Shown here: positions 6,260 through 10,419 of the stretch, piece by piece
How the letters are laid out: every line of letters begins with the position of its first letter
How positions within the stretch are numbered: the first letter of the stretch is position 1
Origin: Gemmatimonadota bacterium
Lineage (GTDB): Bacteria; 4572-55; J002
Length of the DNA: 10,419 bases
Assembly: GCA_003697105.1 (NCBI GenBank)
Contig: RFFQ01000087.1
Span: 1-10,419 of the forward strand
Direction of reading: 5' to 3'
Position numbers and translations under genes: made by a program
The notes under the pieces: model-generated
Seen by the model: only the letters and a program-made list of their open reading frames with translations
The model's database searches: none
Told to the model about the DNA's origin: nothing

Positions 6260-8968
6260 CTAGCCGATCAGACTTTCCACAGTGGAAAGCAAATTGGACT
6301 GTTCAAATGAACTTTTGACGATGTACGCATCCGCACCGACTTCGATCCCGCGCTGTTTATCCGCTTCCGTATCCAGCGAGGTTACAATGATGATCGGTGT
6401 GTGGCGGTAGCGTTCCAGTTGGCGGAGTTTAGCGGTCAAATCGAAGCCGTTTAGGCGAGGCATTTCCACATCGGTCACGATCAGGTCGAACTCGGTTTTT
6501 TGGCACTTGTCATACCCTTCCTGCCCATCGCGGGCGGTATCCACGTCATAGCCGTAGGCTTCCAGTACGCTTTTTTCGATCTCGCGGGTATTCAGGGAAT
6601 CATCCACTACCAGAATCCGCGGGGTGTGGTGTTGGGTCACGGGAACGCTTTTTTTACGACGCCGGGCTAGGGAGGTATGGCTGGTTTTGATTAAATCCGG
6701 TACATGCAGAATGCTAACCACCTCATTGGTACTGGTCACCGTCACGCCAGAGATATTGGGAATACGTCCGAGATGGTCTGGAATAGACTTGACGACGACA
6801 TCCTCTTCATCAATGATGTCATCGACAACTAACCCAATTTGGTCTTCACCGGCATAGGCTAAAACAACGGTTAAATGATTGTCATCGCGGGGGACACCTT
6901 CTTCAGGTAGTTGAAGCAAATCTGCCAGATGTGTTAACGGGATGATCTGATTGTCCAACCGGAAGGCATCGCGATCGACAATCTGAATCACCTCTTCTAA
7001 TGCAATCCGCAAGGTTAACCGAATCGAGGTGATCGGGATGGCAAAGCGCATCTTCCCGGACTTAATGAAGAGTACCCGCAACATGGTCAGTGTCAGGGGT
7101 AGGGTAATGCGGAACATCGTACCTTTACCTTCATCGCTGATAATGCTAATAGTACCTTTTAGCTCCTCAATATACGTACGGACGACGTCCATCCCGACGC
7201 CCCGCCCTGAAACATCAGTGATGATAGGAGTGGTCGTCAGTCCGGGCAAAAAAATCAGTTGGCGAAGGTCATTTTCTTTCATCTGATCCGCTTCTTCCGG
7301 TGTGATGAATCCTCGCTTGAGTGCCTTTTCCCGGATCGCGGCACTGTTGATGCCTTTGCCGTCATCTTCAATCTCGAGCACAATCGATCCACTTTCGTAG
7401 TATGCCCCGATGCGCAGGATGCCGGTAGCATCTTTGCCCGCCCGTAACCGGTCTGCTGGCAGTTCAATGCCATGGTCAATCGCATTGCGGATAAGGTGAA
7501 TCAGCGGGTCATTTAATTTTTCGATGATCTTTTTGTCTAATTCGGTTTCCTCTCCTTCAATCACCAACCGGACTTGTTTACCCAATGTTTTTGCCAGATC
7601 ACGCACGGCGCGGGGATATTTATCAAAAATAGTCGAAATGGGCTGCATCCGCAAATTGAGCGTATTCTCCTGCAAGTCACTAATAATATTGTTGAGTCGC
7701 GCCACCTGGTCTCGAGACTGTTTAAAGAGAGTGTCAATTCGGGTAGCCAGATGCAGGAGTTGGGAATTTGGTTCGGGGATGTCTTGCAAATAGCGTCGCA
7801 TGAGCAAGCGGATCGTGCGGAGTTCATCCTGCTGGTATGCGATCTGCCCCTGGCTGACCAGCAACTCCCCCGCTAACTTGATGGTGTGATCCAATTTATC
7901 CGTACTGACCCGAATGGTCTCAACGATCTGGACGTTCTGCGAGGTGGTGTTGGATGGGGTTGGTGGCTTTTCTGGTTCCGGTTGCGGTCTGGCGGTGGGT
8001 TGTGCGGCAGATGGTAAAGGGGTTTCCGCCGGTTTGGGCACAACCGGTGGCGCAGATTCCATCTGCGGTAGGTGAAACGGTTCACCATTGACGGCTTGCT
8101 CCAAAGCCTCCGTCAGGGGGGATACATCGGCGTCCGCTTCTGTACCGGCACTCACTCGATCTACAAGTTCCTGAATGGTGTCTAATCCCATGAAGAGCAG
8201 TTCGCAAACCGGTTCGGTGGCGTCGATCTGTTTGGTTTTAATTGCACCGAGCACATCTTCCATTTTATGCGCCACGGCTCCGATGTTACGAAAAGAGAGC
8301 ATCCGAGCCGACCCTTTCAGGGTATGCGCCGAGCGAAAAATCTCGGTCAGATTTTCCATATCATCCGGTGCCTTTTCGAGCCGGAGCAAACCCTCATTCA
8401 ATTTTTGGATTATTTCTTGAGCTTCGGTGATAAACCGGCCGGTGAAGACCGATGTATCAAATGTTTTTTTGGGAGCCGGTACGCTTGAGGGTGACGCCGC
8501 GGGCTCTGGCGGCAGTTGGGAAGGCGGTGATGCGTTCGCCACTGGTGGCACAACGTCTGGGGTTAGCGGCGAGGGTACTTCTCCGGCGGCGGTTTGTTCC
8601 AGCAGGTCAATCAGATAGGTCACGTCGGCGTCATCAGTGCCGGTCGTCTTCACCTGATCGACTAATGCCGCGATGCGATCCAAACCTTGAAACAGCACAT
8701 CAAGCCGTTCAGGGGTTGCCGCGAAGGTCTGATTTTTGAGGGCACCGAGGACATCCTCCATTTTGTGGGCTAGCGTGCCAATATGTTTAAACCCGATCAT
8801 GCGGGATGAACCTTTTAAGGTATGCGCAAACCGGAAAATTTCGGTCAGATTTTCAGCGTCATCCGGGGCGGATTCCAATTTAAGAAAGCCTTCGTTTAAC
8901 TTTTGAATCAATTCGGTGGCTTCTTCCACAAATTTTCCGATGAAGATGGATTTATCAAACGCTTTCAT
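6260..8968 (-). CDS. CheA-like hybrid histidine kinase with two HPt domains and a C-terminal receiver
   Basis: The 902-residue cytoplasmic protein has no membrane segment. Domains in order: HPt 1 (about 1-125, FAHTLKG, H49), a Pro/Ala-rich linker, HPt 2 (about 168-295, SAHTLKG, H215), a second Pro-rich linker (300-345), a CheA-type dimerisation segment (about 347-440), and a HATPase with N-box HLIRNAIDHG (491-500), G1 DDGKGI (535-540) and GRGVGMDVV (588-596). A CheW-like domain (about 625-765) and a receiver (783-902) follow; the receiver has acidic D789/D790, phospho-acceptor D833, T863 and K885, all present. The CheY/CheB-binding P2 domain of classical CheA is absent. This build is typical of CheA-type kinases of Pil-Chp-like or other non-flagellar pathways. 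Its start lies 8 bases after the preceding histidine kinase stop without a strong ribosome site, suggesting translational coupling. Signal input and output are unknown. Confidence 0.93.
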   Translation of the reverse strand: MKAFDKSIFIGKFVEEATELIQKLNEGFLKLESAPDDAENLTEIFRFAHTLKGSSRMIGFKHIGTLAHKMEDVLGALKNQTFAATPERLDVLFQGLDRIAALVDQVKTTGTDDADVTYLIDLLEQTAAGEVPSPLTPDVVPPVANASPPSQLPPEPAASPSSVPAPKKTFDTSVFTGRFITEAQEIIQKLNEGLLRLEKAPDDMENLTEIFRSAHTLKGSARMLSFRNIGAVAHKMEDVLGAIKTKQIDATEPVCELLFMGLDTIQELVDRVSAGTEADADVSPLTEALEQAVNGEPFHLPQMESAPPVVPKPAETPLPSAAQPTARPQPEPEKPPTPSNTTSQNVQIVETIRVSTDKLDHTIKLAGELLVSQGQIAYQQDELRTIRLLMRRYLQDIPEPNSQLLHLATRIDTLFKQSRDQVARLNNIISDLQENTLNLRMQPISTIFDKYPRAVRDLAKTLGKQVRLVIEGEETELDKKIIEKLNDPLIHLIRNAIDHGIELPADRLRAGKDATGILRIGAYYESGSIVLEIEDDGKGINSAAIREKALKRGFITPEEADQMKENDLRQLIFLPGLTTTPIITDVSGRGVGMDVVRTYIEELKGTISIISDEGKGTMFRITLPLTLTMLRVLFIKSGKMRFAIPITSIRLTLRIALEEVIQIVDRDAFRLDNQIIPLTHLADLLQLPEEGVPRDDNHLTVVLAYAGEDQIGLVVDDIIDEEDVVVKSIPDHLGRIPNISGVTVTSTNEVVSILHVPDLIKTSHTSLARRRKKSVPVTQHHTPRILVVDDSLNTREIEKSVLEAYGYDVDTARDGQEGYDKCQKTEFDLIVTDVEMPRLNGFDLTAKLRQLERYRHTPIIIVTSLDTEADKQRGIEVGADAYIVKSSFEQSNLLSTVESLIG

Positions 8969-8976
8969 TGGCTAAC

Positions 8977-9885
8977 CTACATTTCGGACTCGGATGTCGT
9001 TGCTTCCGTAACCGGTTCTACAGAGAGTACCGGTAAGCCCACGTGGAAGGTTGACCCGTGTTGGGGGGTACTTTGCACCGAAAGAAAACCGCCCATTAAT
9101 TCCACCATCTTTTTGACGATGCTCAAGCCCAAACCGGTACCATCATACTGGCGAGAGCGAGACATATCGACCTGATAAAAGCGTTCAAAAATCAGGTCGA
9201 GGTGTTCCGGTGCGATCCCAATACCCGTATCCGTCACATCGATGCAAAGGGTATTGGCTTTCAACTGAACATGAACCGTCACGGAACCTCCGGGCGGGGT
9301 GAACTTGATGGCATTGGAGAGCAAATTTGTCATGACCGTCTGAAAGCCGTTACGATCAATGTAAATATGGCATGTCTCCGGGTGATACTCAAACCTCAAA
9401 TTGACTGCTGACCGGTTGGCAATATGCGTAAAATAGCGCTCTAACACCTGGATCATCTGTTTCAATTCGGCAACCTCAACCTGAACTTCTCGCTGGTTGG
9501 CATCCAGCGTATTCAGGGTCAAAAGGTCATCGATCAGTGCCAGTTCATGGCCAGCTTGATCAATAATCAATTGTAGAAGTTCCTGCGCTTCTGCTTTTTG
9601 GAAGGAATCGAACATGTCATACAATAGCTGGGCATTGCCGGAGATCGTCGTCAACGGGGTACGTAATTCATGCGAGATATTATCCAAAATCTCCTTTCGG
9701 GTCCGTAATGCCGATTCCTTTTCTGTCAATGCAGTGTCACACTTCACCTTGAAACGGTGCAGTTCCTCACATGCCCATTGTATCATGTTATACAGTTCTT
9801 CTGAAATCGGTTGCTGGCGAAGTAGGGCTTGTATCTGTCCCAAATTGGATTCTAATGAAGATGTCAGGGAATTGGTTTGTGACAT
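8977..9885 (-). CDS. Soluble sensor histidine kinase (HisKA-HATPase)
   Basis: The 302-residue protein has no signal peptide or membrane helix. Residues 1-55 are a helical N-terminal region of unknown role, 55-65 a likely coiled segment leading into HisKA with the H-box DNISHELRTPLTTI (68-81, phospho-acceptor H72). The ATP-binding domain carries N-box NLLSNAIKF (187-195), G1 DTGIGI (219-224), the F-box FERFYQ (233-238) and G2 GTGLGLSIVKKM (249-260). All catalytic motifs are intact. No PAS, GAF or other recognisable sensor is present, so it may take input from a partner protein. It is the first gene of a two-gene operon with the CheA-like kinase, which carries the only receiver in the pair and is therefore a plausible phosphorylation target; that link is inferred. 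The Shine-Dalgarno is poor (GGGTG); an overlapping out-of-frame ATG sits at 9889. Confidence 0.93.
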   Translation of the reverse strand: MSQTNSLTSSLESNLGQIQALLRQQPISEELYNMIQWACEELHRFKVKCDTALTEKESALRTRKEILDNISHELRTPLTTISGNAQLLYDMFDSFQKAEAQELLQLIIDQAGHELALIDDLLTLNTLDANQREVQVEVAELKQMIQVLERYFTHIANRSAVNLRFEYHPETCHIYIDRNGFQTVMTNLLSNAIKFTPPGGSVTVHVQLKANTLCIDVTDTGIGIAPEHLDLIFERFYQVDMSRSRQYDGTGLGLSIVKKMVELMGGFLSVQSTPQHGSTFHVGLPVLSVEPVTEATTSESEM

Positions 9886-10023: not shown

Positions 10024-10056
10024 AAAAAAACCGCGCATCGTCATACGTGCACGGTT
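10024..10056 (-). terminator. Intrinsic terminator after the selenoprotein gene
   Basis: On the minus strand ACCGUGCA (10055-10048) pairs with UGCGCGGU (10037-10030), an 8-bp stem with one G-U pair, and an outer A-U pair can extend it. The loop has ten bases and six U follow (10029-10024). It sits 35 bases past the stop at 10091, so the SelW-like gene is a single-gene unit separate from the kinase operon. Confidence 0.8.
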
Positions 10057-10090: not shown

Positions 10091-10309
10091 TTATTTAGGA
10101 ATTAAACCAACAAGTTCCCCTTCTTCAGGGAACCGTCCGGTCTCCTTTTTGGAGTAAACCAATTTTCCATCTACTTTCACATCGAAAATCCCCCCAGAAC
10201 CTTTAATCAGTTCGGGTTCGATGCCCAATGCTTCCTTAATTTCTGCAGCCGCCCGGGCTGCGCGAGGATAGTAGTTTCAAACAACACAATATTCAATAGT
10301 AATCTTCAT
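10091..10309 (-). CDS. SelW/Rdx-family selenoprotein (in-frame TGA read as selenocysteine)
   Basis: Reading from ATG at 10309 to TAA at 10091 gives 72 residues if the TGA at 10279-10277 (codon 11) is read as selenocysteine: MKITIEYCVV-U-NYYPRAARA, then a continuous family-like sequence with LIKGSGGIFDVKVDGKLV and YSKKETGRFPEEGEL. Rdx/SelW proteins are small thioredoxin-like redox proteins with a CxxC or CxxU motif directly after the first strand, then a PRA helix, a G-S-G-G-x-F strand and a SKKETGRFP segment. All are present, with the TGA exactly where the second Cys or Sec belongs (C8, U11). GGAGGT lies about five bases upstream of the ATG. Length fits the family. Stop-terminated gene finding would miss it. 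Its exact substrate is unknown; family members are linked to glutathione or thioredoxin-dependent redox. The alternative is a point-mutated pseudogene, which the intact flanking frame and hairpin argue against. Confidence 0.88.
10245..10279 (-). promoter_or_regulatory. Candidate bacterial SECIS element
   Basis: The UGA (10279-10277) is followed by 15 bases and then a perfect 6-bp stem, GCAGCC (10261-10256) with GGCTGC (10250-10245), closing a five-base CGGGC loop. The loop begins 21 bases after the UGA, within the range known for bacterial SECIS hairpins, and has the G residues in the apical loop that SelB recognition usually needs. Being inside the coding frame, it is also constrained by the PRAARAAA helix, so the codons partly explain its GC content. 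Confidence 0.6.
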
Positions 10310-10313
10310 AGAA

Positions 10314-10319
10314 ACCTCC
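10314..10319 (-). promoter_or_regulatory. Shine-Dalgarno of the selenoprotein gene
   Basis: GGAGGT on the minus strand, four bases from the ATG codon at 10309. It fixes the start and shows that the short frame is translated despite the early TGA. Confidence 0.75.
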
Positions 10320-10326
10320 ATGTTTG

Positions 10327-10419
10327 AAAGGATGAAGGCGGAAGGATGAAGGATGATTGCCTTACCTTCGCTTCCGCGATACTACTAAAGGATGAAGGCG
10401 GAAGGATGAAGGATGATTG
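10327..10419. repeat. Two 33-base direct repeats built from heptamers
   Basis: Bases 10327-10359 recur without a mismatch at 10387-10419, at an offset of 60 with 27 unrelated bases between. Inside each copy the sequence steps by seven: AAGGATG, AAGGCGG, AAGGATG, AAGGATG, then ATTG. This resembles the short tandemly repeated heptamers known in some bacteria, such as cyanobacterial STRR sequences. The spacer carries CTTCCGC (10371-10377), which can pair with GCGGAAG in either flanking copy (10338-10344 or 10398-10404). The second copy ends exactly at the window edge, so the array may continue. It lies in the leader of the selenoprotein gene. Confidence 0.85.

Follow-up and report, generated by a model that had tools for sequence, protein, structure and literature searches.

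Bacterial selenoproteins of the SelW-like type, with a CxxU motif, have been known for some time. In the Sargasso Sea set of 2005 they formed the most abundant selenoprotein family, with 48 genes (PMC1088965), and the GOS survey counted 427 SelW-like homologues with selenocysteine (Sec) vs. 56 with Cys (PMC2398784). In 2006, SelW-like selenoproteins were described in Geobacter, Desulfotalea, and other bacteria, with the observation that organisms containing Sec have few Cys forms or none (PMC1794560). A 2026 review equates the family with PF10262, gives CxxU as its motif, and treats it as predicted with high confidence (PMC13188914). The bacterial SECIS element lies directly 3' of the UGA, within the coding region, and its apical loop is commonly small and includes a guanosine (PMC1088965).

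Here we analyzed a stretch of 10,419 nucleotides from a Gemmatimonadota bacterium (the window). A gene on its minus strand (10091..10309) resembles the SelW-like genes of the Sargasso Sea and GOS sets in family, size, and a CxxU motif with predicted Sec as U, as well as in a putative hairpin 3' of the UGA with a loop guanosine and in the predominance of the Sec form over the Cys form; it differs from them only in its host lineage and in a less usual apical loop. We are almost certain that this gene is intact and encodes a bacterial selenoprotein of the SelW-like type, its UGA at codon 11 being read as Sec, on the basis of the sequence itself, the family assignment, the conservation of the TGA, the presence of the decoding machinery, and the predicted fold.

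Gene Layout and Family Assignment

The frame (10309..10091, minus strand) comprises 72 codons including Sec and runs from an ATG (10309-10307) to a TAA (10093-10091), with a Shine-Dalgarno sequence GGAGG (10315..10319) located 5 nt before the start. A single in-frame TGA (10277..10279) follows the first ten codons, and the read-through product is MKITIEYCVVUNYYPRAARAAAEIKEALGIEPELIKGSGGIFDVKVDGKLVYSKKETGRFPEEGELVGLIPK, in which codon 11 forms the motif C8-V-V-U11 with Cys8 (TGT, 10286..10288). The first-pass annotation had proposed a minus-strand frame with a good Shine-Dalgarno sequence and one TGA at the U of a CxxU motif; its coordinates proved exact, and the TGA does occupy that position (10279-10277). 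Downstream of the gene, RNA folding predicted an intrinsic terminator (10024..10055, minus strand) consisting of a hairpin and a T-run (fold of 10060-10022: -16.6 kcal/mol, z = -4.45), and therefore the SelW-like gene looks like a single-gene unit. The genes that come next on this strand are those for a histidine kinase, a CheA-like hybrid, and LeuRS.

The read-through product matched the Pfam family PF10262 (Rdx) with E = 1.3e-20 and 73.8 bits (cut-off 22.6), residues 2-70 covering profile positions 1-72 of 74, i.e., the full length. The cut-offs of two NCBIfam models were passed as well, TIGR02174 CXXU_selWTH (60.7 vs. 34.2) and NF041051 SelTWH_Campy (93.5 vs. 88), the latter being named for Campylobacter, to which the host does not belong. 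Sequence searches of solved structures retrieved C17orf37 (MIEN1) and bacterial SelW-related proteins. AlphaFold2, used with 34 window and locus proteins, gave a model of the read-through protein with a pLDDT of 95.3, and its top Foldseek matches were SelW-related crystal structures (best 2fa8, TM 0.85, E 4.4e-07). The solved Rdx proteins 2fa8, 2ojl, 2oka, 3dex, and 2p0g have the fold predicted here (TM of about 0.85-0.90, normalized by query length) at ~30-38% identity, their chains being longer, and the window gene has the proposed Sec codon where these chains carry what is presumably the second Cys of the motif. The SelW/Rdx-like assignment made at first reading, for which a family search had been advised, is thus upheld by Pfam, NCBIfam, and the predicted fold. 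A search of plasmids for the SelW-like protein yielded weak relatives only (E 7e-6 to 9e-6).

Conservation of the TGA Codon among Relatives

Relatives were sought in 84,980 species genomes with query peptides that did not include the TGA position. The scan returned 79 relatives, and the codon aligned with U11 was TGA in 78 of them and TGC in the remaining one (L084, Thermodesulfovibrio), which provides a Cys homologue of the kind that the first-pass annotation had suggested looking for. Cys8 was retained in 79/79 relatives and was invariant in alignment A1. The relatives carry the labels Desulfobulbaceae, Planctomycetota, Gemmatimonadetes, Verrucomicrobia, Gammaproteobacteria, Krumholzibacteriota, Zixiibacteriota, Acidobacteria, and Actinomycetes, among others. 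The sole other genome of the phylum examined (G001, same class, other family) has TGA at the same codon and also encodes selA.

Downstream of the TGA, the first and second codon positions were conserved between the window and its relatives and the third was not, with identities of 0.80, 0.83, and 0.34 for positions 1, 2, and 3 in the comparison with L029. The part 3' of the TGA is therefore translated in frame, under purifying selection. The read-through frame is not due to chance, given the E-value for PF10262, the share of relatives with TGA, and this pattern of codon-position conservation.

Selenocysteine Machinery in the Same Genome

The genome carrying the window (4.18 Mb in 199 contigs, 96.85% complete, 0.66% contamination) contains selA, selB, selC, and selD, the four genes whose presence had been proposed as a check, and this gene content supports the earlier suggestion that the organism decodes Sec. 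SelB scored 383.8 bits (cut-off 242) in an open frame of 637 aa without stops and contains a SelB beta-barrel together with two winged-helix domains of the SelB type; the latter bind the SECIS. SelA reached 585 bits in an open frame of 506 aa, also without stops. The tRNA-Sec scored 63 bits (cut-off 47), with anticodon TCA (UCA in RNA) and a discriminator G before the CCA at its 3' end.

SelD (355.9 bits) displayed a single in-frame TGA in the context TQLVACAG-U-ASKIAPGVL, at the catalytic Cys/Sec site (C17 in E. coli). It is thus itself a predicted selenoprotein (L011; G000:C12:941-1864, minus strand). Matched stretches of the molybdopterin oxidoreductases (PF04879), AhpC-TSA (PF00578), and CMD/AhpD (PF02627) of the same genome contained no in-frame TGA, so that SelD and the SelW-like gene were the only selenoproteins found in this non-exhaustive search.

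Putative SECIS Hairpin

The region 3' of the TGA was analyzed in 77 distinct sequences with the TGA, one of them that of the window, against a null in which codons were redrawn synonymously according to local usage. The family hairpin lies 14-15 nt after the TGA in a fixed register and forms on average 5.84 of 7 pairs, vs. 4.38 ± 0.11 in the synonymous shuffles; the resulting z of 13 is overstated, because the sequences are related and the statistic ignores kinship. Pairing across the 77 sequences was 0.83 at the true register, vs. 0.66 at the best slid register. In the loop, column 22 was G in 77/77 sequences, column 23 was T in 61/77, and column 25 was T in 74/77. On this comparison of sequences, the family-wide hairpin clearly exceeds what synonymous codon choice yields. 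The single Cys homologue (L084) also forms 6/7 pairs, so the hairpin provides no contrast between Sec and Cys forms.

In the window, the putative SECIS hairpin (GCAGCC-CGGGC-GGCTGC; 10245..10261, minus strand) lies 15 nt 3' of the TGA, in the register of the family hairpin, and displays six continuous pairs (GCAGCC/GGCTGC) with the invariant loop G kept; taken alone, it is not significant (z = 0.85; P = 0.28 under synonymous codon choice). Its apical loop CGGGC is without T at columns 23 and 25. G at column 23 occurs in 14/77 sequences and C at column 25 in 3/77, window included, and a related loop, CGGGT, was found in L076. The SelD gene of the same genome has the hairpin CCAGG-GGT-CCTGG, with a more canonical GGU loop. 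An Rfam scan of the region returned nothing meaningful (best E 0.14, below the gathering score).

Other Features of the Window

Upstream of the SelW-like gene, a short repeat of the CATCCTTCCGCCTT type is present in two copies of 33 nt that do not differ from each other (10327-10359 and 10387-10419), and the last base of the second is also the last of the contig. The 21-mer core of this repeat occurs 41 times in the genome (up to one mismatch), in clusters and often with a spacing of 14 or 21 nt, vs. 0 occurrences in the reversed control; it is a dispersed short tandem repeat that probably caused the assembly to break at the contig end. On the other side of the SelW-like gene, positions 6260-9885 encode the histidine kinase, followed by the CheA-like hybrid, which combines two Hpt domains with CheW and a receiver. 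At the far end of the window, a minus-strand frame of 614+ aa (1-1844), cut by the window end, contains repeated modules of ~140 aa that by eye resemble cohesins. Its DNA repeats are spaced at 420 and 693 nt; one pair is 97% identical, which suggests a recent duplication. Its neighbor at 1913-2506 appears dockerin-like by eye and had no Pfam match.

Discussion

The family of the SelW-like gene is of a well-known and common type, and the gene is a well-supported, ordinary member. In principle, this could be an Rdx gene of the Cys type in which the TGA arose by nonsense mutation (a pseudogene) or through an error of sequencing, and both the existence of a Cys homologue with TGC (L084) and the fragmented 199-contig assembly from which the window derives would fit such an origin. 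The TGA stands exactly at the active-site codon in 78/79 relatives from many phyla and in G001, though, and this conservation rules out error or mutation in practice; the remainder of the frame has no defect and evolves under purifying selection, and the genome holds the complete Sec machinery. We hardly give this explanation any weight, and just as little a genetic code in which TGA is generally a sense codon (Trp, Cys, or Gly) and no selenoprotein would be made. The latter would agree with the stop codons of the six window genes checked, SelW-like gene included, all of which end in TAA or TAG (0/6 TGA), but the long conserved genes for SelB (637 aa), SelA (506 aa), LeuRS (827 aa), and the CheA-like protein (902 aa) are without in-frame TGA and a tRNA-Sec with anticodon TCA exists, which makes such a code unlikely; among the genes examined, TGA appeared only at Sec sites, those of the SelW-like gene and SelD.

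A different question is posed by the apical loop. The gene may be a genuine Rdx selenoprotein gene whose Sec insertion has become inefficient through drift of the SECIS loop to CGGGC. Reduced insertion of this kind is possible, the loop being the one observation in its favor: at columns 23 and 25 it differs from most of the family, and the SelD hairpin retains the more canonical GGU. The continuous six-pair stem in the correct register, the retained loop G, the occurrence of G at column 23 and C at column 25 in other members of the family, and the CGGGT loop of L076 speak against it, and we regard it as improbable. Somewhat less improbable, albeit still doubtful, is that the SelB of this lineage reads a more relaxed set of loops, including CGGGC without the usual uridines; if true, the loop tolerance of SelB would be wider than in the standard model, with SelD keeping GGU.

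According to the reading that we prefer, an intact selenoprotein gene, the UGA at codon 11 would be decoded as Sec by SelB and tRNA-Sec(UCA), guided by the stem-loop within the coding sequence just 3' of the UGA, with Sec supplied through SelA and SelD. The product would be a small protein of thioredoxin-like fold in which C8-x-x-U11 probably carries out the predicted thiol/selenol redox chemistry, most likely in an antioxidant or oxidoreductase function linked to glutathione or thiols.

The SelW-like gene leaves the general understanding of selenoproteins unchanged. A gene caller treating TGA as a stop would truncate or drop it. For the organism, its gene content and two TGA-containing genes point to Sec decoding in a lineage in which two genomes were sampled for the whole phylum.
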